A stretch of DNA of 20,336 nt, taken from a virus. The position numbers and the translations under genes are program-made. Location: the IMG/VR virus record IMGVR_UViG_3300037189_000008, positions 1 to 20,336 of that record; one strand, given 5' to 3'. Under the pieces are notes generated by a model. That model saw nothing but the letters and a program-made list of their open reading frames with translations. It did no database searches and had not been told where the DNA came from. This document shows, piece after piece, positions 7,422 through 20,336 of this stretch. Position 1 is the first letter of the stretch. Each line of letters opens with the position of its first letter.

Positions 7422-8297
7422 TCATGCGTATAGCGCAGATACAAAGGTTGCCGTAAGAATTATGGACGGTGATGCAGGGTGTACTGGCGCTGTTCCTGCG
7501 GGGTATGTTGCCGCTACCGTGTTGCCAGAATCAGAAGCCATAAGCAGTTGAACGTAATCCCCAGCGTTTAGCGGTAAGACCAAGTTCCAAGAAATAATTG
7601 CCGCACCGGGGACGCCACCGTGAATAGCTGGAACAGACACAATACCGGCGCTGTTTGCCACATCTACACCGTTTTGCCTAAACCACAGAGTTACGTTGTC
7701 AATGGAAGAGTCAAACGTTAAAAGCTGGATACTAAACTGCACGTTGTAATAACCAGCCACATCAAAAACAATCTTAGTCTTGTCGGTGGGATCAATGGCT
7801 ACTTGATTGGCAACGTCAGTTTGAGTGAATACAACGGTTAAAGCTGTAGTTGGCGATGGTACAGGCTGTGCTTCAGATACAGCAGCTCCAGATGTGTGCG
7901 CGGCTTTTGTTGAACCGTATGCGCCACGGGTAATCCCCGTAAATGTTGTGGGTGTTTTGCCTGTGTACTGAATAAGCTCAGTGCCAATCAGTATCGCACC
8001 CGCACTCAAAAAGTCTGCCGTTGATGTAACCGCAATGGGCGTTGTTGATACGTTGCTAATGTTTGCCGTTAGAGCTGTGACACCGTCTTGATGAAACGCA
8101 CCGTTTGGAAAGCGCAAGTTGCTGCCGCCCGCAGTGGATGTCAGGGTGTTTGTGAAGTTATCTAGCGTGTTGAAATACAAACGCAAAACGTTACTAAACT
8201 GATCCTGAAACCGTTGGTCGTACTCAACCGGGGCAATTGGCTGGTTGGGAGCCTTTGTGCCACGAAGCAAGGTCGCTATTTGAGTAATGATTGCCAT
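7422..8297 (-). CDS. Receptor-binding type protein with C1q-like C-terminal domain
   Basis: This 291-residue protein has three parts. The N-terminal 60 residues contain a helical segment (APVEYDQRFQDQFSNVLRLYFNTLDNFTNT), probably a trimerising coil and virion anchor. Residues about 85-143 are the Ig-like module with ILIGTELIQYTG and GITRGAYGSTKAAHTSGAAV, shared with two other virion proteins here. Residues about 158-289 look like a C1q/TNF-type jelly roll (FDVAGYYNVQFSIQLL, VTLWFRQNGVDVANS, ISWNLVLPLNAGDYVQLLMA, PSIILTATFVSAL), as on tips of tail needles and fibres. The gene follows the nozzle by 11 bases, so it may be a needle or plug-attached spike, or a host-binding fibre. The C1q call rests on the strand pattern only. 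Confidence 0.72.
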   Translation of the reverse strand: MAIITQIATLLRGTKAPNQPIAPVEYDQRFQDQFSNVLRLYFNTLDNFTNTLTSTAGGSNLRFPNGAFHQDGVTALTANISNVSTTPIAVTSTADFLSAGAILIGTELIQYTGKTPTTFTGITRGAYGSTKAAHTSGAAVSEAQPVPSPTTALTVVFTQTDVANQVAIDPTDKTKIVFDVAGYYNVQFSIQLLTFDSSIDNVTLWFRQNGVDVANSAGIVSVPAIHGGVPGAAIISWNLVLPLNAGDYVQLLMASDSGNTVAATYPAGTAPVHPASPSIILTATFVSALYA

Positions 8298-8308
8298 AAG
8301 GGTTTACC

Positions 8309-10408
8309 CTATCGCCTGCCGTCGTTGCGAATGTCAATTCGCGGCGTGCCAAGCTGCCAAGCCACCCCAAGCCCTGTGGACTCAATCCTGAACGCCATTT
8401 GACGCCCGCGCAGGCGAGTATAGACCTGACCGTCAAACTCTTGGATGTTGTACACGCCCCGATTGGTGTAGTTATCGTTGCTCTGTACCGTTGGGTTATC
8501 CGCCTGCCCGTAAGGTGAACCTGAGTTTTGCCGAGGCTTAACTGTCATGGTTACCGCAGGTTGATCCACGTTTGAACCATTAAAGTTAACGTCAGGCAAG
8601 ATACGCCAGACAAACCCAAAGTTGTGACCATCACCAATATCAAAGTCTGACGACTGCACATACGCATCGATTGGCGCGGGGGAGGTTCCAGCCACATCAT
8701 CAACGTTTGACTCATGGTACAACACACGGTTGTCGTAGTTTGTAGCCATTGGGTAGCGACGAATACCAGAGTCAAGCCATGCCGTGCGAGCCATCGAGCC
8801 GTAATACCAGACGCGATCAAGGTAGTTGTAAATCACATACTTATCGACGGTGTTTGATGTGCCTGAACAGTAGAACCACCAGACCTCGTTGTAACCTTCA
8901 TTGCCGCCACAGAACACTTGGTATGACTGATCTTGGTTGATGTCGTCAAAAATATACTGGCGCAGTGAACAGGGCAGTGTTTCTACACGACCTGAGTACA
9001 TGTAGAACTTGTCCGTACCCATCCAGTAGGTTACGTTGTTGATTGTGATCATTGAGTTTGGCGAGATGACGGAAATGTTGTCCATCAAAATCTCAAACTT
9101 CCAAACGTATGGCGGTCCAAGGTACTGCATTGAATACAGGCATGAATCAGTCCAAACCAGAATCTCTTGGCGCGTTGCAATTGCTTGCATGATGTACGAA
9201 CCGTTGGACAGCCTGAACTCACCGGCTTGGTTTGTTACCTCTGGAACCCATTGGTAAGCATTGGCTTGATCAGACCAACGCACAAGCATCGGATCAAACG
9301 TGGTGTTTGGGATGCCTGACACATAAGGATTTGCACCAAAAGCAATAATAAAACGCTGAATTGCAGAAGCAATCACTTGGTACGTCTCATACGGCACATA
9401 CGTGCCTGAGTAGCCTTCAGACGTTGACAGGTCGGATAAGAGCTGTGCGCGTGTTGATACACCAGTGCTGGCTTTCCAGTAATAAATAGCTCCTGCGCGA
9501 GGTGCAATCACCAAGTCTTGACCGTAGTTGTCATCTGACCACAAGCGTAATTGATTACCGATTGTTGTAACCGCACCAGACCCCCAGCCGCCACGACCCC
9601 ATGTACCCGAACCCCAGCCTGTGCCAGTAACGTATGTATCTAGACCGGTGTTAATTTGATACGCAGCAACAACAGCAGCCCCGCCACCAGACGTAGCACT
9701 GGTTGAGAACACGCCGCTAACATTGAAGGTGTATGTGTTAGCGTTGATGATGTTGTAGATTTCTTGCTCAGCGTTCAGGTTGCCCGTAGTAAATCCATCA
9801 AAAGCTGTTGCACCACTGAAAGTCACAAAATCATTTTTTGTTGCGCCGTTTGCCACATCGGTAACTGTAATGGTCGAACAACCCACTGCCGCACCGGTTG
9901 GATGAGTTGCAGCCGTTGTGCCGTTATAGCCACGAATCAAACCATTTAAGACGTTGCCAGTCTTGCTGGTAAAGAAAATCTGTTCAGTGCCGATCTTGAT
10001 GATGCCGGGCGAGTTTGAAAACGACGCACCAGAAACCAAAGTTAAGCTTGTAGCCGTTGCGGTAATGCTGCCATTCAATGTGCTGTAGGCAGAAGCAAAC
10101 GGGTTGTTTGCCATTGGGTTAACGGTCTTGCGGATCGGGGTAATGTCGTAGTACGTACCGCCAAGCTCAATGTAGTATTTAAGGCTTGTGCCAACACCAA
10201 GGTAATTGTTGCCAGACAGGTCAACCCAATTCCACAGCGAACGCGCAGTGCCTAGGTATGTGTTGTCAGACAGCCGAGTCCAGCCGCCAATCTTTTCGGG
10301 AAAGCCTGAGCGAAACCGAATTTTGTCCCCGTCATACCACCCGCCTTCGTTGGCGTAGTCAGTACCCTCGCGGTTTAAACCGGGTCTGAACTGAAGTTTC
10401 TGGAGCAT
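8309..10408 (-). CDS. Tail nozzle protein (P22 gp10 / SU10 nozzle-like)
   Basis: This 699-residue protein opens with the sequence typical of podovirus tail hub or nozzle proteins: MLQKLQFRPGLNREGTDYAN, then GGWYDGDKIRFRSGFPEKIGGW (22-43). These form the lower tail tube and plug through which DNA leaves. The propeller-like body has LWNWVDLSGNNYLGVGTSLKYYI (59-80) and later strands such as LRLWSDDNYGQDLVIAPRAGAIYYWKAS and MLVRWSDQANAYQWVPE, with YWMGTDKFYMYSGRVETLPC and the C-terminal QEFDGQVYTRLRGRQMAFRIES. Two insertions appear: residues about 113-177 match a module shared with two other proteins, and 179-254 form a second Ig-like module. The W/G-rich segment GTGWGSGTWGRGGWGSG is at 262-278. 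It lies 2 bases after the endolysin stop. Confidence 0.82.
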   Translation of the reverse strand: MLQKLQFRPGLNREGTDYANEGGWYDGDKIRFRSGFPEKIGGWTRLSDNTYLGTARSLWNWVDLSGNNYLGVGTSLKYYIELGGTYYDITPIRKTVNPMANNPFASAYSTLNGSITATATSLTLVSGASFSNSPGIIKIGTEQIFFTSKTGNVLNGLIRGYNGTTAATHPTGAAVGCSTITVTDVANGATKNDFVTFSGATAFDGFTTGNLNAEQEIYNIINANTYTFNVSGVFSTSATSGGGAAVVAAYQINTGLDTYVTGTGWGSGTWGRGGWGSGAVTTIGNQLRLWSDDNYGQDLVIAPRAGAIYYWKASTGVSTRAQLLSDLSTSEGYSGTYVPYETYQVIASAIQRFIIAFGANPYVSGIPNTTFDPMLVRWSDQANAYQWVPEVTNQAGEFRLSNGSYIMQAIATRQEILVWTDSCLYSMQYLGPPYVWKFEILMDNISVISPNSMITINNVTYWMGTDKFYMYSGRVETLPCSLRQYIFDDINQDQSYQVFCGGNEGYNEVWWFYCSGTSNTVDKYVIYNYLDRVWYYGSMARTAWLDSGIRRYPMATNYDNRVLYHESNVDDVAGTSPAPIDAYVQSSDFDIGDGHNFGFVWRILPDVNFNGSNVDQPAVTMTVKPRQNSGSPYGQADNPTVQSNDNYTNRGVYNIQEFDGQVYTRLRGRQMAFRIESTGLGVAWQLGTPRIDIRNDGRR

Positions 10409-10410
10409 TT

Positions 10411-10944
10411 TTAGCCCACCATCTTTAAAGCACGTTGACGAACAATTTCTGCACGATTAAGCCAGCCTTGTTCGTATTTTGGGTTCTTTAAACTTTTATA
10501 CCACGCCACTTTTTCGTCGGTAAACTTGTTGACAAGTTCTGTGGAATTAAACTTACTGACCGCAGCTAACGTTAACGGACCGATTGCCCCGTCAGGCGTT
10601 GCACCAACAGCACTTTGCAAAGTCTTAGCACCGCGACCAACCCCAGCATTAACAGCGAGGTCAAACACAAGATAATCCACACCGTTTGGCAAATCGTTGC
10701 AATGAGCCGCATCCCAGAATTTACGGCGGTACATGGGTTCAACCAACGCATGAGTGAGGTTACGCATTTCTTTTTCGTTTGACTGTCTACCAACCCAAGA
10801 CTCCCAAGTTGTTTGCGTTACACCAAGATTGGTGCAGCCTTTTCTGCCATCAGGAAGCCAGTTGCCATTGTCATCAGGGTCGTCACTAAACCCGCCTTCT
10901 GACTCTTGCATGTAGTCAAACGATTGTTTCCAGTTGTCTTTCAT
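10411..10944 (-). CDS. Endolysin, GH108 muramidase with C-terminal peptidoglycan-binding domain
   Basis: This 177-residue protein starts with the GH108 catalytic region. E16 in ESEGGFSDDPDD is the expected catalytic glutamate, followed by the NLGVT motif (39-43), where the family has a TNxGIT-like sequence. It would cut the glycan backbone of peptidoglycan. The C-terminal part has FWDAAHCNDLPNGVDYLVFDLAVNAG (77-102), the PG-binding-3 type pattern, and a repeat-like stretch with TPDGAIGPLTLAAV (116-129), then EKVAWYKSLKNPKYEQGWLNRAEIVRQRAL. There is no signal peptide, so export depends on the holin, to which it is coupled by ATGA. No spanin pair was seen nearby. The length is normal for this family. 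Confidence 0.88.
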   Translation of the reverse strand: MKDNWKQSFDYMQESEGGFSDDPDDNGNWLPDGRKGCTNLGVTQTTWESWVGRQSNEKEMRNLTHALVEPMYRRKFWDAAHCNDLPNGVDYLVFDLAVNAGVGRGAKTLQSAVGATPDGAIGPLTLAAVSKFNSTELVNKFTDEKVAWYKSLKNPKYEQGWLNRAEIVRQRALKMVG

Positions 10945-11306
10945 TTCTTTTGCGAGTAAAACAAGGTGCGGTCACCAAACAAGTAGAACCCAACGGCTGA
11001 AGCAAAGTTATTTACGGCAGGGCTGTCTTGACCAGACAACTGCATGAATGCCCAAGTGCCAAGCACAATTAGCCCAACAGACGGGCGCATAAGCCTCACA
11101 ACAGCTTCAACCCACGGATAGGTTGTGCCAGTACCACCAGCAGCGTTCATCGCCTGAAACATCTGCAAATCAGTCTGGCGCATCTGGACGTATTCGTTGA
11201 TGTTCACTGGCTTGTAAACGTCGGTCTGAATAAAACGACCTATAAGGGATTTCCCTAGGTCTACGGCAAGTGGGCCAAGCGCAGCAAGGATGGTTAGCGG
11301 GTCCAT
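10941..11306 (-). CDS. Holin (GTA-type 3-TM family)
   Basis: This 121-residue protein has an N-terminal hydrophobic, partly amphipathic segment (about 3-25, LTILAALGPLAVDLGKSLIG), a middle soluble helix (NEYVQMRQTDLQMFQAMNAAG), then PWVEAVVRLMRPSVGLIVLGTWAFMQL with a clear membrane helix (about 76-90) preceded by the RLMRPS motif typical of gene-transfer-agent-type 3-TM holins. A last hydrophobic segment is at 98-111 (VNNFASAVGFYLFG). It would form inner-membrane lesions that let the endolysin reach peptidoglycan. Its stop overlaps the muramidase start (ATGA), the usual holin-lysin coupling, which strongly supports the call. The C-terminus is basic (YSQKK). Confidence 0.82.
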   Translation of the reverse strand: MDPLTILAALGPLAVDLGKSLIGRFIQTDVYKPVNINEYVQMRQTDLQMFQAMNAAGGTGTTYPWVEAVVRLMRPSVGLIVLGTWAFMQLSGQDSPAVNNFASAVGFYLFGDRTLFYSQKK

Positions 11307-11309
11307 AGC

Positions 11310-11510
11310 TTATCCAAACGTAATAGCAAACATCGGCACAGAGGTTGCGTGAATCTCAACGTTCTGTTGTGGCGTGGCTAGGTCAGCACCGCAGTCTGAG
11401 CATTGCGCTTTGTCCAGCTCTTCTTGGGTTACGTCCGCACTGCAACTCGGGCAGAGAATTTCAATCTTGTGCGCGGCTTCTGTATCAGTTGCTTGGTTTT
11501 CGATAATCAT
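11310..11510 (-). CDS. Small zinc-ribbon protein
   Basis: This 66-residue protein has four cysteines in two CxxC knuckles, C20-x2-C23 and C37-x2-C40, separated by 13 residues. That is a typical zinc ribbon, with an acidic flexible N-terminus and a hydrophobic end (SVPMFAITFG). The start overlaps the upstream stop by one base (TGATG), so it is coupled to the fibre gene. The holin gene begins 3 bases after its stop. Function is unknown; such mini zinc ribbons in phages may mediate protein or nucleic-acid contacts. It is too small to be an enzyme. It is the second zinc-ribbon protein of the window, with shorter knuckle spacing than the one at 19104-19526. Confidence 0.7.
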   Translation of the reverse strand: MIIENQATDTEAAHKIEILCPSCSADVTQEELDKAQCSDCGADLATPQQNVEIHATSVPMFAITFG

Positions 11511-11935
11511 CAGAACGTACCTCCAGAGAGTGTAATGGCAGAGTAAAAGCCAGTTGATCCGTCACAGTATACGTTCTGCTTTACGCCGTTACCAACAGTT
11601 ACCGTTGCGCCTGTTGAGGCTTTAAACACGATGGGGAACCCGCCGGTGGTGTTGTTGTAGACGACGTAAGCCTTATTGACCAGCGGAGCCACGACGTTGC
11701 GCTGAGCGGTCAGTGTGCCTGTTGCTATGATAACCGCGTTACGTGCTTCGTCTGACAGCCCGTTTAAATCAGTTAGCGTGTAGTCAGCATCCAGCATGGT
11801 AATTGTCTGCACCCCAGTGATTGCCTGTTCAAGCAATGTGCCAAGGTTCTTGTTGGTCGTTTGACCCCATGTACCGGACTGTTCGCCGTCACCGATAAGT
11901 TCGATTTTGAGTGATGGTGAGTAAGTTGATGGCAT
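11510..11935 (-). CDS. Small tail/fibre-associated structural protein
   Basis: This 141-residue protein opens with MPSTYSPSLKIELIGDGEQSGTWGQTTNKNLGTLLEQAITG, a segment common at the N-terminus of phage fibre or baseplate-attached proteins, where it probably docks to the virion. Beta strands rich in Val/Thr follow (QTITMLDADYTLTDLNG, RNAVIIATGTLTAQRNVVAP, NKAYVVYNNTTGGFPIVFKAS), ending in VYCDGSTGFYSAITLSGGTF. The motif GLSDEARNAVI at 59-69 belongs to the same pattern. It closes the fibre cassette. Its TGA stop and the next ATG share one base (TGATG). The virion role is likely, though whether it carries a separate tip or only docks other fibres is unknown. Confidence 0.75.
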   Translation of the reverse strand: MPSTYSPSLKIELIGDGEQSGTWGQTTNKNLGTLLEQAITGVQTITMLDADYTLTDLNGLSDEARNAVIIATGTLTAQRNVVAPLVNKAYVVYNNTTGGFPIVFKASTGATVTVGNGVKQNVYCDGSTGFYSAITLSGGTF

Positions 11936-11947
11936 AGTAAATCCTTT

Positions 11948-12613
11948 TTAAGCAGCCAATACGTCTTGCCAATTGTTAGTCTGTGAAGCGTTTACGTCAA
12001 CCCAATTTGCTGTTTGCGCGGGGACAATGTCGCTCCAGACCATGAAGTCACCAATCCTGCCGTAGGCGGTCAGTCCAGTCACAAAGACATCAGCGTTTGC
12101 CGTGGCGTTGACGTTGCCTAAGCGTGTAGTACCCGTGACGCCGGTGACATTAACAACTACGGTTGAGAAGGCAGTTGCCGTGCCAAGAGCAGTTGTACCG
12201 CGCACTCCAGTAACGTTAACAACCGCGCTCTGCACAACGTAGGCAATACCAACCGAGCCTGTGCCTGTCACGCCCGTAACAGCAGCACTTACGTCAGCGG
12301 TAGCAATAACCGAGTGAACCGAACCTGTACCAACCACACCTGTTGGAGTTACGTTAGCAGTACCAGTAACCGAAGCTGTGCCTAGCGCAGTAGTACCACG
12401 CACATAAGTGACGTTTACCGAAGCACCCGCATTTACCGTTGCAGTGCCAAGAGCTGTTGTGCCACGTACTCCAGTAAGCGTAACGCTTGCATCTGCCGTA
12501 ATGCTAACCGAGCGAACCGAACCTGTGCCAATTAAACCCGTTACGTTAATGCTTACCGAATCTACCCCCGTAGCCGCAAACGATGCACCAGCAATCGGGG
12601 TAAACCCAAGCAT
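11948..12613 (-). CDS. Beta-repeat protein with exact 22-residue periodicity
   Basis: This 221-residue protein consists almost wholly of tandem repeats. The motif VTGVRGTTALGTA and variants recur with the TG pair at residues 25, 47, 69, 91, 113, 135, 157 and 179, an exact spacing of 22. Each unit alternates short Val/Thr strands with a Gly turn, as in beta-solenoid or beta-helix shafts. The last copy is degenerate (LTAYGRIGDF). A different tail follows: W193-SDI, W204-VDV and W215-QDV are spaced 11 residues apart with QT in the two linkers. No Cys, signal peptide or catalytic motif is seen. Sitting in the fibre cassette, it is probably an elongated fibre, spike or surface-attached protein, with the Trp repeat as binding or trimer-tip element. 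The role is inferred. Confidence 0.7.
   Translation of the reverse strand: MLGFTPIAGASFAATGVDSVSINVTGLIGTGSVRSVSITADASVTLTGVRGTTALGTATVNAGASVNVTYVRGTTALGTASVTGTANVTPTGVVGTGSVHSVIATADVSAAVTGVTGTGSVGIAYVVQSAVVNVTGVRGTTALGTATAFSTVVVNVTGVTGTTRLGNVNATANADVFVTGLTAYGRIGDFMVWSDIVPAQTANWVDVNASQTNNWQDVLAA
12047..12544 (-). repeat. 66-bp in-frame tandem repeats (seven to eight copies)
   Basis: The 22-residue repeats of the gene at 11948-12613 are also visible as DNA repeats of 66 bases. For example, the similar strings starting at 12180 and 12444 on the plus strand (both beginning GTGCCAAGAG) are 264 bases apart, exactly four units. Copies differ mainly at third codon positions and in two sub-types, GTGSV and GTTALG. 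All copies keep the reading frame. Confidence 0.85.
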
Positions 12614-12617
12614 TTAT

Positions 12618-13133
12618 TTACGCTCCAGTAGGGGGTGTGTAATTCGGGTCATGCGCCCAAACCACAGGTGGCAAAGCAGCTAACTGGTCAACAGTCGTGC
12701 AAGCGTTAATTGCCGTGATGTAGTCGGCAGCCTGTGTGCGAATTGTTTGACGCCATGTGTTCCAGTTGGGTGCGACTGTGCCGCCTGTTTCAACAGCCTT
12801 AACAACCATCCAGTCGGTTGGCAAGAGGATTGAGTAAGCCGCTGCGTTTGTTGCGTTGACCGCATTAGACTGGCACTCAAACAAGTCTTTAGGCGTAGCG
12901 GTGTAGTTAATCTCAACCACCGTGCCGTTGTAGACAGGTGCGTCTTGGCTAATCCAATAATAGACATCTGAAGGATATTGACCGTACACCACATCAACCA
13001 TGCCGATAGCCGCCTTTTCTTCGGGGCTAGACAGGTTGCACCAATTGGCTGGGTATTGCGTACCATCCCACTCAAAAGCTGTGCCAGCGGGGATTAACAT
13101 GGCGATAACGCCGTTGGAAATGATTGCAAACAT
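12618..13133 (-). CDS. Probable tail fibre assembly/attachment protein
   Basis: This 171-residue protein has a short beta N-terminus (MFAIISNGVIAMLIPAGTAFEWDGTQYPANW), a SSPEEKAAIGMVDVVYG segment (35-51), and a C-terminal helical region LLPTDWMVVKAVE (103-115), NWNTWRQTIRTQAADYITAI (123-142), then DQLAALPPVVW. The TDWMV ... WRQxIR pattern is like tail fibre assembly and DUF4376-type proteins, which help fibres fold or attach and are typically coded right after the fibre gene, as here. The ribosome site TAGGAAAA includes the fibre gene's TAG stop. The last codons of this gene (GGAGCG) form the ribosome site of the next gene. Assembly role is inferred; it could instead be a minor fibre component. 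Confidence 0.65.
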   Translation of the reverse strand: MFAIISNGVIAMLIPAGTAFEWDGTQYPANWCNLSSPEEKAAIGMVDVVYGQYPSDVYYWISQDAPVYNGTVVEINYTATPKDLFECQSNAVNATNAAAYSILLPTDWMVVKAVETGGTVAPNWNTWRQTIRTQAADYITAINACTTVDQLAALPPVVWAHDPNYTPPTGA

Positions 13134-13141
13134 TTGTTTTC

Positions 13142-15520
13142 CTATTGAGCAAGGCTGTTGCGGAAAGGGTTACTTGCGAAGGCGGCGTATATGTATGTGC
13201 CACCAGATGCGTTAATTGCAGCAGAGTTATTTCTAATTTTGAACCCATTTGAAAGCGCATCAAAATCTTGCGTTGTTGCTGTGTACTCAGCATCAGAAGT
13301 GTTAGGGTAAAGAATTGAACTCATAGCGTTGTATGGTGTTCTTGCTGTATCCCAAATACGCCAATCGCTTGTTGTGTCTGTGCGCTTATAAAGAATAAAC
13401 CGAGGTTTAAACCCAAGGTATACAAACACACCGTCCGTGCTGCCGTTACCAGTTAAGCTACCAAACGCTGAGTATCCTGCTATAGGTGTCCAGCAGTAGG
13501 CAACATAACCTAAACCACTTTCGTTTGCGTACGAAAGAGCCGCCGGTGTAAACACTGATGATGTTGGCGCAGCAATGGCGCTACCAGCATTTAAACCGCT
13601 GGTGTTGTTCAAAAACAAAGTCTGCGTAGCCGTAGACCACAATACACCGCAACCTTGTACAACCCAGTTATACGTTGATGCACGACCTTTCTCAATAATC
13701 AACGATGGCTTGACACCAAGCCCATGACCAACCGTTGCACCGTTTGTGCCGTTACCTGTGTAAGTGACAATCGAAAATCCGGCAGACGCATTAACGCTCA
13801 CAGTCGATGTGATTGAGCCGTTGGTGTTGCTTGATGTTGAACCTTGCCCTGCTTGCCATTGCCAGCCGACAAAAGTTTGACCGCTATCGTTTGATGCAAG
13901 GTATGTTCCGCTACTAGTGCTTACTGTAAACCCATTGCTGTTAAACGATGTAAGCAGATTAAAAGTGGCTTCTGCATTAGTTGAATTGGATGATAAGTCC
14001 TTACCAACACCACGCACAGAATCTTCTAAATAATTGCCGTACCCCAATGAACGACATTTAACCCATACTAGGTCGGGTTTAAACGCACCCGCATTAACAA
14101 TACTTTGTGTCGAGCCATTACCCGTATACAACGTAGCATCCATCACCGTGTTGCCCTTGAGGATGGTGCTTGTTGGCAAATTGTATGTGTTCAGGGCTAC
14201 AAAACCTGTGGGGGGTGTGTATGAAAACGGACGCTGACCAAAGTTAATAGTTGATGAACCGGAAGATGAATACGCCCCAACAACACGGTCTACGCCAGTA
14301 GAAATGGTTGTTACTTGCCCAGTACCCGCAGCAGGATTGCCTGAATTTTGCCAAGTGCCATTTTTAGCGACCCACACTTTACCTGTGTCAGCGTCCCAAG
14401 CAAAACCAAGCAAATCGCCATCGGTAAATGAACTAACGGTAAGCACAGATGAACCGTTATAGTAAATGTCACCGCCCTGAAAATAACCAAATGAATTGGC
14501 ATCGTAGCCGGGCCAATACGTTCCAAGCCCCGCCACATACAAGCCTGAAATTGGAAAATTAGCACCTGCACCACTATTGCTAACAAACTCCCAATAAAAC
14601 TTACCTGTCCGAGCAGCAATTGTTGAACGCTTGCCGCCGCTGCCCGATATATTAAGGTTGCCACCCGCAAGCGTACCCGTCATGCCTGTTTCTGCATTCA
14701 ACGGATTCAATACACAATAGTTAGCCGCCGTAGCACTCGTCAACGTAGGCACATCAGCCATGCTGTCATACGTCACACCAGCCGTGATGCTGATGTTGTT
14801 CGTTGTCCAGTAATTGCCGTTGCCTGAGAAGTCTTTACCCAAGCCTACGTTGCTGCTTGTAGTCAGCGCAGAGTTGTCTGTGAAGGGGAGATAAAAACCG
14901 TTTGTGCCGTATGTGCCTGTGTACCGTGCGGGTTGCCATACGCCTGTGAGAACGTTGGTTGAGCCGAATGATGAGGGGGTTAGGGCTTGACCGTCAATGA
15001 AGTTGACTTCTGCTAGGTAGCCGTCAAAATACTGCGCTGATGTTAAATACCCAATATTGGTTGCTGTCGATGCTGTGTTTAATGCCCATTCCGCCGCACT
15101 TGGCCCAGTACTTGTGCCAAACGATGTGATTTGCACGCCATTAACGTATAGGTTAAGCGCAGTAGAGCTGTTGCTTGCAACAACAAAATGATACCAAGCA
15201 GATGGGTCACGAAATACTTGCGTTGTAACACGTCGTGATTGCACTGTGCTGCTGACGTAATTGATAACTTCTAGCTGGTTGTTTGTGAATTTAATTGACG
15301 ATTCGTTTGTGCCGCCGTTAACGCCATTACCAAATAAAATAGCGGCATTGCCAGAAGGCCAATTTCCAATCTTGACCCAAGCGCTCCAAGTCCACACAGC
15401 GTTGTTAGTAACTGTGCCAGTATTAGTCCGATTCAAATACGCAGACGCACTCGCCCTAAACCGCAGCGAGCGTGTGAGGTTGTAGCCTGTAGGGTTAGCG
15501 CCAGCTAATACCGGAAACAT
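13142..15520 (-). CDS. Large tail fibre with LamG-like, SPRY-like and DUF7483-like domains
   Basis: This 792-residue protein is the main receptor-binding candidate. Residues about 17-190 form a LamG/concanavalin-like jelly roll (RSLRFRASASAYLNR, WTWSAWVKIG, WYHFVVASNSSTALNLYVNG, GYLAEVNFIDGQALTPSSFG), a fold that often binds glycans. Residues about 255-440 look like a SPRY domain (GKFYWEFVSNS, SFGYFQGGDIYYNG, FTDGDLLGFAWDADTGKVWVAKNGTW). Residues about 460-785 contain three related repeats opening with TGNGS/T and a GxKP strand (465, 587, 689) and match the DUF7483 type found on phage fibres. It is coupled to the preceding fibre gene by TAATG. Its TAG stop starts the TAGGAAAA ribosome site of the likely assembly gene. 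The domain calls are from motif reading; the exact receptor is unknown. Confidence 0.85.
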   Translation of the reverse strand: MFPVLAGANPTGYNLTRSLRFRASASAYLNRTNTGTVTNNAVWTWSAWVKIGNWPSGNAAILFGNGVNGGTNESSIKFTNNQLEVINYVSSTVQSRRVTTQVFRDPSAWYHFVVASNSSTALNLYVNGVQITSFGTSTGPSAAEWALNTASTATNIGYLTSAQYFDGYLAEVNFIDGQALTPSSFGSTNVLTGVWQPARYTGTYGTNGFYLPFTDNSALTTSSNVGLGKDFSGNGNYWTTNNISITAGVTYDSMADVPTLTSATAANYCVLNPLNAETGMTGTLAGGNLNISGSGGKRSTIAARTGKFYWEFVSNSGAGANFPISGLYVAGLGTYWPGYDANSFGYFQGGDIYYNGSSVLTVSSFTDGDLLGFAWDADTGKVWVAKNGTWQNSGNPAAGTGQVTTISTGVDRVVGAYSSSGSSTINFGQRPFSYTPPTGFVALNTYNLPTSTILKGNTVMDATLYTGNGSTQSIVNAGAFKPDLVWVKCRSLGYGNYLEDSVRGVGKDLSSNSTNAEATFNLLTSFNSNGFTVSTSSGTYLASNDSGQTFVGWQWQAGQGSTSSNTNGSITSTVSVNASAGFSIVTYTGNGTNGATVGHGLGVKPSLIIEKGRASTYNWVVQGCGVLWSTATQTLFLNNTSGLNAGSAIAAPTSSVFTPAALSYANESGLGYVAYCWTPIAGYSAFGSLTGNGSTDGVFVYLGFKPRFILYKRTDTTSDWRIWDTARTPYNAMSSILYPNTSDAEYTATTQDFDALSNGFKIRNNSAAINASGGTYIYAAFASNPFRNSLAQ

Positions 15521-16638
15521 TACGCCACCGCCTGTGAGATGCCTTGTTGATAGAGATTTGTGCCGTCAGAGCGGAAGGTGAAGAAGTCTTTTGCCCCGGC
15601 AGCGGTAGACAGCGTTGGTGCAGTACCAGAAGCCCACTTGAACACCGAGTTCCATGTGAGCGTATTAGACCCTGCATTTTGAATCACAGCCAACGCATAA
15701 AACGCGCCGTTTACCAAACCCGTAGGTGCGCCCATTGTGCGATTTGATGACACAAAAGTAAATGTAGCCACTTGCCCGCCCGCTGTTGTGGTGTCCCACG
15801 CAATTGTAGCTGCATCGGTCAACGTAAAGTTGGGCGAGTAACCCGTGCCTGTAAACGCGGTCTTGCCCGTGCCTTTGGGGGTCAAGGTAATGCTGATGTT
15901 GGTATCTGAGCCTAATGCAGCCAAGGAAGTGGAGTTCCCCGTAGCGCTACCTGTTACGGTGAGGTAATTAACTGCTGAGGCTGTATTAGTGATTAAAAAT
16001 TGATAGCCACCACCTGTTGCAAACCCGTGGAATCCAGACCCTTTTGCCTGATAAGTTGTAGAAATATTGGTATCTGAGCCAATAAAATTTAAATTGTATG
16101 AACTACCTCCTGAATAAAGCTGAAGCGTGTTACCTGTGCTATTGTCTAAACGCAGTACAGAGTTAGCGCCTACATTAAATAGCTGTGTGCCTGTGCCTTT
16201 AGAGGTGTAGGTAAGCCCAATGTTAGTGTCAGAACCTGCCGCTGTAATTGATGGCGAAGAAGTTGTAACAGCCCCCGCAGCCTGCAAATAATTTACCGCA
16301 CTAGCAACAGGCGTGACACGCAATGATTCCGCACCCGCTGCTGCGCCTAAATATGACGTACCCACAACGGTTAACGCAGTACCACTAAACTGCAAATTAG
16401 CCGAAGTTTGTAAAGCAGACGTACCGTTGCCGTAAGGTACATAGTTGGCGGGGAACACAGTTCCAGCTGACGCTTTTGACGCAATAACCTGAACATTACC
16501 TGTATTGTCTTTGTAATAAAGAATGCCGTCAGTAATGTTTACAGCTAACTCACCATTTGCCAGATTGCTTGCAGAAGGTGTAGCTGAAGCTGTTGTGCTG
16601 TAGTACGTTTGAATTGGTAAAAAGCCTGCTTGTGCCAT
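15520..16638 (-). CDS. Tail fibre protein with repeated GSDTNI motifs
   Basis: This 372-residue protein is low in charge and rich in Thr, Ser, Gly and Asn. The N-terminus (about 16-52) has the common fibre start NLANGELAVNITDGILYYKDNTGNVQ, as in proteins that attach to the particle through a short beta module. GSDTNI occurs three times (135, 187 and 243), each followed by a KGTG or KGSG turn, and ASAVNYL occurs twice (112 and 220), giving repeats of about 52-56 residues. The C-terminal part (about 266-372) has strands such as ATFTFVSSNRTMGAPTGLVN and ends FFTFRSDGTNLYQQGISQAVA, a common fibre end. The repeats suggest an elongated beta shaft. Its stop and the start of the large fibre gene share one base (TAATG), so the two are translationally coupled. 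Confidence 0.8.
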   Translation of the reverse strand: MAQAGFLPIQTYYSTTASATPSASNLANGELAVNITDGILYYKDNTGNVQVIASKASAGTVFPANYVPYGNGTSALQTSANLQFSGTALTVVGTSYLGAAAGAESLRVTPVASAVNYLQAAGAVTTSSPSITAAGSDTNIGLTYTSKGTGTQLFNVGANSVLRLDNSTGNTLQLYSGGSSYNLNFIGSDTNISTTYQAKGSGFHGFATGGGYQFLITNTASAVNYLTVTGSATGNSTSLAALGSDTNISITLTPKGTGKTAFTGTGYSPNFTLTDAATIAWDTTTAGGQVATFTFVSSNRTMGAPTGLVNGAFYALAVIQNAGSNTLTWNSVFKWASGTAPTLSTAAGAKDFFTFRSDGTNLYQQGISQAVA

Positions 16639-16647
16639 GATCTATTC

Positions 16648-16968
16648 CTAAAATGTCCCACTATTAGTAATACGCTCTGCGGGGTATGTCACAAACACGT
16701 TCAGTGTGCCTGTAAAACTTACCAAACTGCCTGAGTTTGATGAAGCCAAGACGGTCGTGCGTGACAGCGTATTACCCGCTGAGGTGTATGTACCAATGCC
16801 AACTTCCCAGCTACCCGCTGCGTTCGTAATAGTGTAGTAGCAAGAGTTACCGTTGCCAATACCAGCAGAGAACGTCTGATAACCGGTTAGCGCACCAGCA
16901 AGCGTAAGTGTTCCCGTACCAGCAGTTGTGCTGGTTTCTTGTACTCGATCCGCAAGCACCAGAGCCAT
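16648..16968 (-). CDS. Short tail-fibre-type module protein
   Basis: This 106-residue protein is essentially one beta-rich module. It opens with MALVLADRVQETSTTAGTG, then CYYTITNAAGSWEVGIGTY (about 43-61), LSRTTVLASSNSG (68-80), and a closing VSFTGTLNVFVTYPAERI (83-100). This module type, with WEVGxGTY, a T-V-x-SSN segment and a final VxxTxPA strand, recurs in many phage tail fibres and tail-associated proteins, usually as part of a longer chain. Here it stands alone. It probably trimerises or caps a neighbouring fibre. Its TAG stop overlaps the TAGGAA ribosome site of the next gene. Virion role inferred from the module and the fibre cassette context. Confidence 0.7.
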   Translation of the reverse strand: MALVLADRVQETSTTAGTGTLTLAGALTGYQTFSAGIGNGNSCYYTITNAAGSWEVGIGTYTSAGNTLSRTTVLASSNSGSLVSFTGTLNVFVTYPAERITNSGTF

Positions 16969-16970
16969 GT

Positions 16971-16980
16971 CAGGCTCCTA
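16971..16980 (-). promoter_or_regulatory. Ribosome binding site TAGGAGCCTG
   Basis: TAGGAGCCTG on the minus strand directly follows the upstream TAA stop and precedes the ATG at 16968. It differs by one base from the sites at 17433-17442 and 18572-18582. Confidence 0.75.
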
Positions 16981-17430
16981 TTAAGCAATCTGAATAATTG
17001 CAGTACCGGCAGCAGCAGTCGGGAACACAACAGTGAATGTACCGGCAGTCGAAGTCTTGTCAGAGCCAAAGTCCAACACAGCCACGCACTTGTTGCTCTG
17101 TGTGCTGTTGTAGATCATTGCGCCGCGAGCAGTAATAGTTGCCGATGACCATGAGCTGTTTGAGAACGACAGATACGCTGTAGTGCCTGACGATACAGGA
17201 ACCACTGAGATTGTCAGTGTGTTGCCACCAGCCGTGTAGCCAGTACCAACAACTTCGTTAGAGGTTGTATAAGCAGTGGTCGTTGCGTCCAGTGTTGCTG
17301 CTGAGGTGTACAGCGCAATCTTAAACGTGTCGGCTGCGGTCGAAGCACGGACAACGCCAGTGCCAAAATTGTGGATGCCATCAAGGATTTCAACCTTGAA
17401 AGACGTTGCCATCGCTTGCGTGATTGCCAT
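16981..17430 (-). CDS. Beta-rich virion protein of unknown role (149 aa)
   Basis: This 149-residue protein is low in charge and rich in Thr, Ser, Ala and Gly, with alternating hydrophobic strands (DTFKIALYTSAATLDA, NTLTISVVPVSSGTTAYLSF, KCVAVLDFGS, GTFTVVFPTA). The N-terminus (MATSFKVEILDGIHNFGT, after a short Met-Ala-Ile leader) is a pattern I associate with small abundant proteins of environmental tailed phages, and the composition fits a virion surface, decoration or fibre-base protein. There is no signal peptide or catalytic motif. It has one of the three TAGGAGCCT ribosome sites, suggesting good expression. The next gene follows 12 bases after its stop. Exact virion role is not known. 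Confidence 0.7.
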   Translation of the reverse strand: MAITQAMATSFKVEILDGIHNFGTGVVRASTAADTFKIALYTSAATLDATTTAYTTSNEVVGTGYTAGGNTLTISVVPVSSGTTAYLSFSNSSWSSATITARGAMIYNSTQSNKCVAVLDFGSDKTSTAGTFTVVFPTAAAGTAIIQIA

Positions 17431-17432
17431 AG

Positions 17433-17442
17433 TAGGCTCCTA
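17433..17442 (-). promoter_or_regulatory. Ribosome binding site TAGGAGCCTA
   Basis: TAGGAGCCTA on the minus strand lies just before the ATG at 17430, within the 15-base gap after the adaptor gene stop. It is the same string as before the gene starting at 18570. Confidence 0.75.
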
Positions 17443-17445
17443 AAA

Positions 17446-18093
17446 TTATCGTACAGGCCCCGGAACCGGGAGTTTAAGTTGTCCGTCACGGTAGGCACTG
17501 CGACGTTCTTTTCCATCACCAAGGTCTTTGAGCAGAGCCATTGACTCTTGATACATCTTCTCATAGTAAGCGACCATGTCCTGCTCGCCCTTTTGAAAAA
17601 TCACAGCCTCGCGCAGTGAGCCATACAGCAACACTGTTTCAAAATTATCGCCCACCCATGACGTACCCGCAGTAACAATCGACTCTGGGTAATAGTATTC
17701 GTGCAATTCAACAACATAACTCTGATCCGGCGTTGGACCGATGATGAACGTGTACGGGGCAAACTGACCAAAGTACTTTGGCAACCCTGTGTCGCTTGGG
17801 CTTGGGTAAGCCTGACGAATAAAGTTTACATCTTTGTCCAACAGAAACTGTTGCTCGCCATTGGAGTCAGTTACAGCCAACGAGAATGTTGCCAAGTAGT
17901 CTGTTGGCAAAGACAAATACTTGTCCCCAGCCGTGAAGTTGCCTGTCACGTTGCGGCGGATTGCAGGAATCTGCACCGCGTTGTAGATGCGCTCTTCAGC
18001 AAGCTGCACAAAGTTCGGGATGTTGTCGATGAAGACCTGTTCAAAGGTCTCCGCATAATCCTGAATGGCAGTTGATAACTGGGCGTAATTCAT
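17446..18093 (-). CDS. SU10-type head-tail adaptor protein
   Basis: This 215-residue protein has the order expected of short-tailed phage adaptors that ring the portal and connect it to the tail. Two N-terminal helices (about 5-42, QDYAETFEQVFIDNIPNFVQ and AEERIYNAV) are followed by a beta domain with LPTDYLATFSLAV (62-74), GLPKYFGQF (103-111), FIIGPTPDQSYVVELHEYYY (116-135), and a C-terminal helical bundle (DNFETVLLYGSLREAVIFQKGEQDM and YYEKMYQESMALLKDL) ending in a basic tail. Length fits the family, which includes T7 gp11-like and SU10 adaptors. No strong ribosome site precedes the ATG, which lies 2 bases after the upstream stop, so translation is probably coupled. It resembles in layout the connector-like gene at the right edge, so the window may code two such rings. 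Confidence 0.75.
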   Translation of the reverse strand: MNYAQLSTAIQDYAETFEQVFIDNIPNFVQLAEERIYNAVQIPAIRRNVTGNFTAGDKYLSLPTDYLATFSLAVTDSNGEQQFLLDKDVNFIRQAYPSPSDTGLPKYFGQFAPYTFIIGPTPDQSYVVELHEYYYPESIVTAGTSWVGDNFETVLLYGSLREAVIFQKGEQDMVAYYEKMYQESMALLKDLGDGKERRSAYRDGQLKLPVPGPVR

Positions 18094-18095
18094 TT

Positions 18096-18377
18096 TTAAG
18101 CCATTGGTCCGCGAGCCATACGACCCTTAGTTGCTGCACCGTTGCCGCGAGTCTCGATACCATCAGCTTTAACATCGTCACGACCGGGGTTACCAATGGC
18201 AACGCGCATAGCTAAAGTGCGTGGACTAACTTGATCAGCAGAAAAAGTGTTTGGGTCAGGCTTTCGACTAACCGCATCTTCCATACTAACTGCACCACCT
18301 TTCATAGTGTGCGGCTCAGCATATTTATCAGCTTGACCAACTTCTTTACCCATCATTTTTGAGCTAAATTTAGCCAT
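18096..18377 (-). CDS. Small phage protein of unknown function (93 aa)
   Basis: I place the start at the ATG 18377-18375, giving 93 residues beginning MAKFSSKMMGKEVGQADKYA. The longer frame to 18422 would overlap the upstream gene by 38 bases and add a hydrophobic stretch (VVTWLVLTT) that reads as that gene's sequence in another frame. The chosen start leaves 7 bases after the upstream stop and has AGTGAG as a modest ribosome site. The protein is polar, with Lys/Gly/Asp-rich segments and a basic C-terminus (GNGAATKGRMARGPMA), and is probably poorly structured. No known domain is recognised. It pairs with the preceding small basic gene and precedes the adaptor gene, whose ATG lies 2 bases after its TAA. 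Confidence 0.7.
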   Translation of the reverse strand: MAKFSSKMMGKEVGQADKYAEPHTMKGGAVSMEDAVSRKPDPNTFSADQVSPRTLAMRVAIGNPGRDDVKADGIETRGNGAATKGRMARGPMA

Positions 18378-18384
18378 GACAATC

Positions 18385-18570
18385 TCACTTTTGGTTGTTA
18401 GCACGAGCCATGTTACGACCAACTTTTTTCATTGCCATTGACGTAACGGTGCTTGCACCTTTTTTACCCTTGCCGCCCTCAATACCCACTGATGGGCCTG
18501 AGTCGCCAAGATTTTTGCCTTTGGTTCTGCCGGTTTTGGTAACACCGTCTGCGCCGCTTTTATACGCCAT
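18385..18570 (-). CDS. Small basic Gly/Lys-rich phage protein
   Basis: This 61-residue protein is rich in Lys, Gly and Ser with almost no hydrophobic core (KTGRTKGKNLGDSG, then EGGKGKKGAS) and has a short basic C-terminal helix (MAMKKVGRNMARANNQK). It is probably largely disordered and could bind nucleic acid or an acidic partner. The gene is supported by a strong AGGAG ribosome site and by exact packing between the HNH gene and the next small gene, 7 bases downstream. I do not recognise a named family. By position among connector genes it may be a minor virion component. Function unknown. Confidence 0.7.
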   Translation of the reverse strand: MAYKSGADGVTKTGRTKGKNLGDSGPSVGIEGGKGKKGASTVTSMAMKKVGRNMARANNQK

Positions 18571-18571
18571 G

Positions 18572-18582
18572 ATAGGCTCCTA
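18572..18582 (-). promoter_or_regulatory. Ribosome binding site TAGGAGCCTAT fused to a stop codon
   Basis: On the minus strand TAGGAGCCTAT precedes the ATG at 18570. The AGGAG core is a strong Shine-Dalgarno match at normal spacing. Its leading TAG is the stop codon of the HNH gene. The same 10-base string, with at most one change, stands before the genes starting at 17430 and 16968. Confidence 0.75.
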
Positions 18583-19107
18583 AGTAATGTAACTATTGTT
18601 TTTGCGTTGGTTTGTTGACGCAGGTATAACTTGTAAATTTGTTGGCACATGTAACCCAGACACCAATTTGCCTTGCAATGGGATTATATGGTCAACATGC
18701 CATGAAAAGCCAAATATTTTTGTACGTAACGCCGCCAATTCATATGCTTGTTCAATCATCCAATAATCATCTTCTGTAAGCCACGATGGGGTTCTGTGTA
18801 ATTTAGCTGTTTGCCGTTTACGTGACCAAGCATTTACTTTGGCTGGGTTATCCTTACGGTATTGTTTAGCAGCTTCTTTAGCTTTAACAGCGTTGTTTGA
18901 GTACTCTATCGCACGTAGTTTTTTGCGACGATTAGCATTTTCATCCCTCCACTGCTTCGCGGCTAAAATACTTTTATCTCGAGTTTTTTGGTAATATCGC
19001 TTACGGTTCATTTTCTGATAAGTTTTTCGGCACTCAATGCACTGCCTACGCTGTGGTTCAAACAACGAATTATCTTTACTTACATTACAAACCGTGCATA
19101 TTTTCAT
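18580..19107 (-). CDS. HNH homing-type endonuclease
   Basis: This 175-residue protein starts with a treble-clef-like zinc site (C4, C7, C23, C26). A long Lys/Arg-rich helical linker (about 30-105) probably binds DNA. The C-terminal HNH nuclease (beta-beta-alpha-metal) has H137-x-D139-H140 as the metal and general-base cluster, N157 in a PTNLQV strand, and N166 with K169/N170 closing the motif. It would cut or nick DNA, and free-standing HNH genes of this kind are typically selfish intron-like elements between phage genes. It sits between a zinc-ribbon gene (4-base ATGA overlap) and a small basic gene, and its TAG stop forms the first bases of the next gene's TAGGAG ribosome site. Hand counts over six 60-base lines give about 40% G+C, against about 54% in three lines of flanking genes, consistent with later acquisition. 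The ribosome site before its own start is weak, so coupling to the upstream gene is likely. Confidence 0.9.
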   Translation of the reverse strand: MKICTVCNVSKDNSLFEPQRRQCIECRKTYQKMNRKRYYQKTRDKSILAAKQWRDENANRRKKLRAIEYSNNAVKAKEAAKQYRKDNPAKVNAWSRKRQTAKLHRTPSWLTEDDYWMIEQAYELAALRTKIFGFSWHVDHIIPLQGKLVSGLHVPTNLQVIPASTNQRKNNSYIT

Positions 19108-19526
19108 ATTATTTCTATACTAACTGTACCTACTTGACCAGTCGCCAATAAATCGTTTGGCGTTAAGCCGTCATCTGCAGGACCACCTACGGGGTTCCAA
19201 TTCCATTGGATAACCCTGCTACCACCTTCAGGATAACCAATGCCGATCGGCGCATTTGTATCCGTCAAAGCAATCTGCAAACCACTTGTGCCGGAAACCA
19301 AATAGCTAACGTCTGGCCTTGGCTCTCTCACTGCCTGCGGGTCATTGACTGGATACATACCCAATTGCAACTGTGGCTGATCGGGGTCCCAACAAGACGG
19401 GCAAACCTTGATGTTGTACAGCTTAGTCTTCAGTACCTGCTTCTTTAATTCTTTCAACTTGTATCGCTGAGCGCAACGGTCACACTCGGCAATTGCATAT
19501 TTACCTGACGCAAATTTACTAGGCAT
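19104..19526 (-). CDS. Zinc-ribbon virion-associated protein
   Basis: This 140-residue protein has an N-terminal zinc ribbon with two CxxC knuckles, C15-x2-C18 and C42-x2-C45, separated by a basic segment (KLKELKKQVLKTK). A conserved-looking LQLGMYPVNDPQAVREPRPD stretch follows at 53-72, then a beta-rich C-terminal half with many Gly and Pro. Homologous genes are common next to connector genes in environmental caudoviruses and have no assigned function that I know. Start choice: TAAGGTGACAT before the ATG supplies a good ribosome binding site and also contains the stop of the upstream gene. Its own stop overlaps the HNH gene start as ATGA. It may be a minor head or head-completion protein, by position only. 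Confidence 0.75.
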   Translation of the reverse strand: MPSKFASGKYAIAECDRCAQRYKLKELKKQVLKTKLYNIKVCPSCWDPDQPQLQLGMYPVNDPQAVREPRPDVSYLVSGTSGLQIALTDTNAPIGIGYPEGGSRVIQWNWNPVGGPADDGLTPNDLLATGQVGTVSIEII

Positions 19527-19534
19527 ATGTCACC

Positions 19535-20336
19535 TTAGTAAAAAAGTTGTCGCGGCACAAACCGTACAGGAGCCTTCTCACGATCCTCATCTGCTGCCAA
19601 CTGAAACTGTTGCTCGTAATCTGCTTTCAGCATCACAATTCGATTTGGGTCAACCTCTGGCAACTTAATGCTTAGGTTATACGCAAGACCTGCGACCATG
19701 CACGTAATAAAACGAAACGGGATGTCTTGTGTAGAAATGCCGTTACCTGAGTTTTGGATGCGTCTTAAACGGTAATATACAAACGTGTACTGGTTGCCCG
19801 GTGCATTGGGGGTAGGCCAGACATTCACGTTTGGTAAAAAGATTTGAGTAACTGAAGCTAATGCACTATGAGCAACAGCAGTTGTGTTTGCCTGCCCACG
19901 AAAGCAGTTTAATAGCTGATTACCGCTCACATTTTGATAGACAATAATCTCGTCATCAATCTTCACATAGCCTGAACTTGGCAAGCTCGCAGCCGATGAA
20001 ACATTGATTGTTGTATCTGTAGACGAAATAGAGGCAGACAACGTTGCAGACGGTATAGCATTTGTATTGCCAGATTGACGGTTTACCCATACTTGAATCG
20101 GACGCCCCAGTGCATTCTTAGTTGGGATCGTGATGTATGTGGACTCAGAAATGCGGGTAATGTTGATGTCAATCTGATTTTGACCAGACCCAGTACGGAT
20201 CACAGTGTCAAGCAAATCAATCGTATCAATAGGTAAGGGGTATATAGCTTGCCCTGTGACCATTGGAATCTGCCCCTGTTCGATCGTCCACAGGTTGATG
20301 CCACGATTTGCCCACTCAATGGTCATTAGATTTAGA
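19535..20336 (-). CDS. Head-tail connector/adaptor-like protein, 5' end cut by window edge
   Basis: The frame is open to the right edge: the codons before the Met at 20326 contain no stop. The usual N-terminal helices of such proteins are missing here, so the gene is probably truncated and that Met is internal. The visible 263 residues have a beta-rich start (YPLPIDTIDLLD at about 29-40), a GRPIQVW strand at 74-80, then WPTP at 170-173, a YTFVYYRLRRI strand at 180-190, and a helical C-terminus (IPFRFITCMVAGLAYNLS, then a charged helix ending in EDREKAP). This is the layout of P22 gp4 / T7 gp11 / SU10-type adaptors and resembles the adaptor gene at 17446-18093. Residues about 93-161 look like an inserted Ig-like module that also occurs in the proteins at 7422-8297 and 8309-10408. 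The stop TAA merges with the ribosome binding site of the next gene. The role as connector is inferred; the virion location is likely. Confidence 0.6.
   Translation of the reverse strand, partial: LNLMTIEWANRGINLWTIEQGQIPMVTGQAIYPLPIDTIDLLDTVIRTGSGQNQIDINITRISESTYITIPTKNALGRPIQVWVNRQSGNTNAIPSATLSASISSTDTTINVSSAASLPSSGYVKIDDEIIVYQNVSGNQLLNCFRGQANTTAVAHSALASVTQIFLPNVNVWPTPNAPGNQYTFVYYRLRRIQNSGNGISTQDIPFRFITCMVAGLAYNLSIKLPEVDPNRIVMLKADYEQQFQLAADEDREKAPVRFVPRQLFY

Follow-up and report, generated by a model that had tools for sequence, protein, structure and literature searches.

Three tail proteins encoded in a 20,336-nucleotide stretch of DNA from an environmental phage (IMG/VR record IMGVR_UViG_3300037189_000008, positions 1 to 20,336; hereafter, the window) each carry a copy of the same module: an adaptor (ring) protein, a beta-propeller nozzle/hub protein and a fibre- or needle-like protein whose gene adjoins that of the nozzle. 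The copies are homologous, have discrete boundaries and a confidently predicted fold, can be missing from close relatives of their host proteins, and recur at several insertion sites. The module is almost certainly one independently folding, mobile all-beta domain of about 64 residues, a small beta-barrel. As an overall explanation, a mobile barrel domain with a structural add-on role on the tail exterior accounts best for the data, and we consider it fairly probable.

Three diverged copies of one module

The first copy (19850..20041, minus strand) covers residues 96 to 159 of the adaptor, the second (9884..10078, minus strand) residues 111 to 175 of the nozzle, and the third (7878..8072, minus strand) residues 76 to 140 of the third protein, where it lies between a conserved N-terminal segment and a C1q/BclA-like C-terminal domain. 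All three are about 64 residues long and contain a glutamate, an arginine and a histidine (E126, R143 and H153; E142, R159 and H169; E107, R124 and H134, respectively) in the same E-17-R-10-H spacing. Pairwise BLASTP of the full proteins gave E = 7e-10 for adaptor and nozzle (38% identity over 85 amino acids [aa]), 1e-6 for adaptor and third protein, and 5e-8 for nozzle and third protein; shuffle Z-scores for the three module pairs were 15.7, 11.8 and 13.8. A profile built from the three copies picked out these three sites and no fourth in the window, and the same three copies in a near-identical contig of 36.5 kb (L004). We could thus confirm the first-pass annotation in its observation that segments of three virion proteins share one pattern. 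The segments were located where it had placed them, except that the third had been begun nine residues too late, and the proposed length of about 55 residues has to be corrected to about 64.

The three copies are just 36 to 44% identical to each other, and their DNA shows no similarity beyond 12-nucleotide words. They are therefore not recent copies of one another, and a recent duplication within the genome was rejected. No model in Pfam or NCBIfam (2025-26 copies) covers the module.

Fold and solved relatives

AlphaFold2 models were built for the adaptor and nozzle copies from the window and its viral-contig relatives. In both, the module forms a high-confidence domain of its own, and its short strands follow one another in a similar way (predicted local distance difference test scores of 92 to 96 in the adaptor and 92 to 95 in the nozzle), so that structure prediction covered two of the three segments. 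The third copy is 34 to 41% identical to the other two in BLASTP, from which the shared fold follows by homology.

In fold searches with VIA, the adaptor module matched residues 479 to 558 of the JBD30 hub (8rk3_b; Z 9.7, root mean square deviation 2.1 Å, 73 aligned residues, 25% identity). A direct sequence search of the PDB with the three modules returned microcompartment-shell noise only, and a 40-row module profile found the hub of phage Chi (E = 4.4e-5) and, weakly, that of JBD30 (0.055). Profile scans of the complete Chi and JBD30 genomes gave matches in the hub genes only. Furthermore, alignment of 14 hub segments from 13 phages with 40 modules was well above background (hhalign 95.2%, E = 2.8e-8 over 66 columns; the score of 46.2 compares with at most 15.7 after shuffling). 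The module and the small beta-barrel of the siphophage hub/J proteins thus share full-domain sequence homology, the fold and the signature IDDEi..v.ai..v.RG..DTvpa.H..Ga. The hub barrel is part of one hub protein and sits between fibronectin-like domains, whereas short-tailed phages carry the module as an optional insertion in adaptors, nozzles and fibre-like proteins. The module is hence a relative of the hub barrel domain, and its host proteins are not hub proteins. JBD30 residues 479 to 558 probably correspond to the structure's domain VI, judged by position and description, as the source text gives no residue numbers.

The module segment also resembled the VP1 capsid (9in6_M, Z 10.4), the GP4 portal-tail protein (8jov_1, Z 10.1), the Mystique tail tube (9n71_A, Z 8.9), the lambda tail tip (Z 6.5) and F1-ATPase barrels (Z 6.0). 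Since none of these was matched by sequence, homology to them is not claimed.

Presence, absence and replacement in relatives

Among nozzle homologues with cores about 70 to 80% identical, one and the same position is found in three states, with the module, without it, or with a duplicated other domain. The linker at this site measures 83 to 92 aa with the module and 13 to 20 aa without. In the window, the module is directly followed by a second inserted domain, TVTD..HGA..GDFVTFSGA (9659..9877, minus strand; residues ~178 to 250), and 26 relatives carry a second copy of this GDFVTFSGA domain in place of the module (linker mostly 114 to 142 aa; tandem duplicates are seen, e.g., in L024-L041 and L060-L078), which makes this loop a general domain acceptor. 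In most nozzle homologues, the module is missing or replaced. The adaptor linker has 72 to 79 aa in 93 of 99 open reading frames (ORFs), all with the module, and 4 aa in the remaining six, which are close homologues with cores still about 70 to 80% identical. Homologues of the third protein either have the module, lack it cleanly, with the N-terminal segment fused to the C-terminal domain, or carry other sequence in its stead. The first-pass annotation had proposed that the module interrupts the connector and nozzle folds, a view that would have suffered had the segment been integral to close homologues of these proteins. The short, clean linkers found in its place bear the proposal out.

A nozzle-core tree, built without the module region and assessed by Shimodaira-Hasegawa-like approximate likelihood ratio support only, requires module presence to have switched at least eight times, with 16 changes when all four states are counted. 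The sister nozzles L015 and L073 (support 100) differ by a clean module insertion. States also mix freely between proteins: one relative has the module in the third protein only (L047), another in the adaptor and not in the nozzle (L057), and among 12 long relatives all three copies occur only in the phage of the window. Presence in the nozzle and in the third protein is unlinked (2/17/7/44, Fisher p = 1, uncorrected for relatedness), and the copies are therefore probably independent of one another.

Other insertion sites and named phages

Both proteins have further insertion sites. In three nozzles (L178, L207 and L224), the module lies further along the protein, after a GxGWGxGxWGG motif (site B), and in Pelagibacter phage HTVC027P it occupies a different adaptor loop (loop 2), while the following gene holds another, weaker copy. 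The Roseobacter phages CRP-901/902 and the Pelagibacter phage HTVC023P contain a single module each, in ORFs of 707 to 717 aa where the nozzle matches fall; none was found in the adaptors of CRP-901 and HTVC023P. In Skadi-4, the module lies towards the C-terminus of "tail tube B" (residues 520 to 583). That even ring and nozzle proteins, which are under strong assembly constraints, hold the module marks the loops concerned as tolerant of cargo.

Occurrence in other protein families

The module was also found in baseplate wedge and structural proteins of cyanomyoviruses and in tail-tube B of pelagiphages (203 records), and it lies within the profiles of about ten PHROG families (4406, 2885, 11439, 358, 1101, 7578, 22827, 708, 9851). 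Each of these families, all of which match the module segment of the window proteins, describes a complete protein (baseplate wedge, tail fibre, virion protein) and gives the shared domain no name. On bacterial contigs, it is carried by connector-like and tail-fibre proteins (L276 and L274) as well as by proteins with subtilase, RCC1-repeat or VWA/TIG domains. In metagenome-assembled genomes (MAGs) labelled as planctomycete or Kuenenia, giant ORFs of up to 18,985 residues hold tandem modules, with 4 to 42 copies per genome; these names and that of Chloroflexi are labels of the MAG or contig records. The giant, protease, RCC1 and VWA proteins look secreted or surface-exposed.

Arrays of 7 to 16 copies were seen on single segments of 6 to 10 kb (L258, L264, L266, L268, L271, L275, L281 and L286), and two giant-ORF segments with 13 to 16 copies had no Pfam match at all. 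Three of the planctomycete/Kuenenia-labelled genomes contain 37 to 42 copies, and the 18,985-aa ORF belongs to one genome. On a Chloroflexi contig (L276, 4419-5366), a protein without Pfam match reads as a head-tail connector of the HK97-gp6 type and has the module in its C-terminal half. Four further Chloroflexi-type contigs (L283, L287, L289 and L293) have it at a similar place, and such connectors possibly represent a further independent insertion.

The host proteins

The adaptor gene (19535..20335, minus strand) is truncated by the window edge, its reading frame being open up to 20335. Most relatives whose locus extends far enough have 43 to 50 extra N-terminal codons (e.g. MTTSGLSSFNLDLTELVEEAFERCG...), so that the gene probably starts upstream of the ATG at 20326 and the residue numbers used here are about 44 too low. 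Homologous phages annotate the protein as "adaptor" or "tail adaptor". It matches the SU10-type adaptor family PF24175 barely over the cut-off (27.2 versus 27 bits), and its model aligns to solved adaptors and ring proteins over residues 14 to 257 (VIA Z 4.6 to 6.2). The module is placed between two strands of the beta-rich part, and the solved proteins (about 185 to 243 residues) align to the remainder. A second SU10-adaptor-like protein without the module is encoded nearby (17446-18093, minus strand; PF24175, E = 2.8e-21).

The nozzle/hub protein (8309..10408, minus strand; 699 residues) belongs to phrog_3287 (E = 1.9e-64) and to the family of P22 gp10, SU10 gp17 and Pa223. Its model is a beta-propeller (VIA Z 30 with 9nwi_Y, 27 with SU10 and VP1, and 24 with P22). 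By sequence alignment, residues 65 to 93 and 367 to 574 correspond to SU10 residues 74 to 102 and 614 to 852, and residues 24 to 91 and 367 to 537 to Pa223 residues 28 to 93 and 161 to 342, the first of the Pa223 pairs being very weak. As these alignments flank the module and the domain that follows it, both follow the N-terminal blades and precede the remainder of the propeller, in the stretch that holds the immunoglobulin (Ig)-like domains of the SU10 nozzle. Pa223 is some 200 residues shorter in this stretch. According to the SU10 study (PMC9509320), these domains are located between blades 2 and 3, confer stability on the tail and are in contact with the short fibres.

The third protein (P0003; 7422..8297, minus strand; 291 residues) had been labelled C1q-like. 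Support for this label is indirect, as a match to Pfam BclA_C (E = 4.8e-5 at best) exists for 8 of 17 homologues but not for P0003 itself.

Role of the module and alternative explanations

Recombination has almost certainly inserted the module repeatedly into, and removed it from, loops of the adaptor ring, the nozzle and the nozzle-linked fibre or needle. Surface loops would accept the compact barrel, the tail exterior would be enlarged, and the module would most likely serve as a spacer, a clamp or a surface for docking, in contact with adjacent subunits or fibres, much as is reported of the siphophage hub barrel. The balance tips slightly towards such a structural role. The first-pass annotation spoke of a transferable surface domain decorating the tail. 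Its transferability is upheld by the clean absences, the separate fold and the different sites, while "surface" and "decorating", like the exterior position and the stabilising or docking role favoured here, are what we infer from solved relatives. Two points weigh against the structural interpretation: the equation of JBD30 residues 479 to 558 with domain VI depends on position and description, and the three invariant residues (E, R and H) might belong to a site for a ligand or ion and not to a structural core.

The latter residues are unchanged in 100 non-redundant modules regardless of host protein, and they are retained in the hub family. They might bind a glycan or cation and make the module a weak, promiscuous adhesion domain that keeps virions near their hosts, as proposed for capsid Ig-like domains. 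The persistence of the three residues in the apparently secreted or surface-exposed bacterial proteins would fit, as would a Klebsiella phage depolymerase among the VIA matches. However, in JBD30 the homologous domain (a small barrel of six strands in the siphophage baseplate hub) has, by its description, an internal contact and stabilising role, and E, R and H may do no more than define the fold, as the G, I and Y that are likewise conserved look structural too. We regard adhesion as rather unlikely, with some chance of being right. Also conceivable, though doubtful, is a hitherto undescribed "E-R-H barrel" superfamily of adhesive or structural function that virions bear on their exterior and bacteria on giant surface proteins. 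The three residues would then form a shared functional site, for a ligand or an ion, and phages and bacteria would exchange one binding module.

The nearest neighbour of a module lies in the same protein class for 89 of 100 modules, and by this measure each class keeps its own module lineage. This would be expected if the module were ancestral in each protein and had only been lost by deletion in some lineages, without horizontal transfer between proteins; its presence in 93 of the 99 adaptor ORFs agrees, and the nozzle tree cannot separate losses from gains. Nevertheless, the second insertion sites in nozzle and adaptor, and a nozzle site that holds the module, another duplicated domain or nothing, are hard to explain without transfer despite the class-specific lineages, and at least the origin in several unrelated protein families needs it. 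Purely ancestral inheritance is therefore improbable. Chance or compositional likeness of Thr/Ser/Val-rich beta strands is virtually inconceivable, for despite the abundance of T, S and V in the segments, it is refuted by the BLASTP E-values and shuffle Z-scores (12 to 16) and contradicted by the constant E-R (17) and R-H (10) spacing and by profile matches of 1e-21 to 1e-31 in relatives, with no match in SU10, lambda, DSL-LC04, MinM2 or GB2A.

Relation to known domain families

Promiscuous add-on domains in phage virions are an already known kind. Ig-like domains (SU10 nozzle, major-tail-protein decorations, Hoc) are likewise beta domains added to tail and head proteins, but the module differs from them in sequence family and in its fold matches, which are to small barrels; no bacterial or phage Ig model in Pfam (Big/I-set types) matched any of 40 module members at E ≤ 0.1. 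A weak RG..G.T motif is shared with Rcc01698_C (PF23666), the C-terminal domain of the gene transfer agent hub. Membership in this family was rejected: two of 40 modules matched, at E 0.021 or weaker and below the curated cut-off, and the module profile scored about 0 bits against the hub protein.

Domain shuffling is documented for phage proteins, with tail proteins as hot spots (Smug et al. 2023, PMC10684548), and the module would exemplify the same process. The main text of the article mentions neither "nozzle" nor "cyanophage", and families missing from domain libraries lie beyond the reach of a scan based on ECOD. In the open-licence papers searched, we found no description of the module family, of its reach into adaptors and nozzles, of its relation to the hub barrel or of its occurrence in giant bacterial proteins. 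Besides Ig-like domains, the module is a second widespread plug-in domain of phage virions. It offers a testable fold for regions currently annotated as "hypothetical" or "structural protein", and the planctomycete ORFs, thousands of residues long, tie the evolution of phage tails to giant proteins of bacteria.

Other features of the window

Three further genes, all on the minus strand, stand out in the window. The product of one (13142-15520), a large virion protein, combines a LamG-like domain with DUF7483 (PF24299, E = 8.9e-108), and another (11948-12613) encodes a protein of short internal repeats (V.VTGV.GTGSV / GTTALGTA). The third (18580-19107) lies among the structural genes and reads as a putative HNH-type endonuclease with zinc-finger-like CxxC pairs and the motif WHVDHIIPLxxG.

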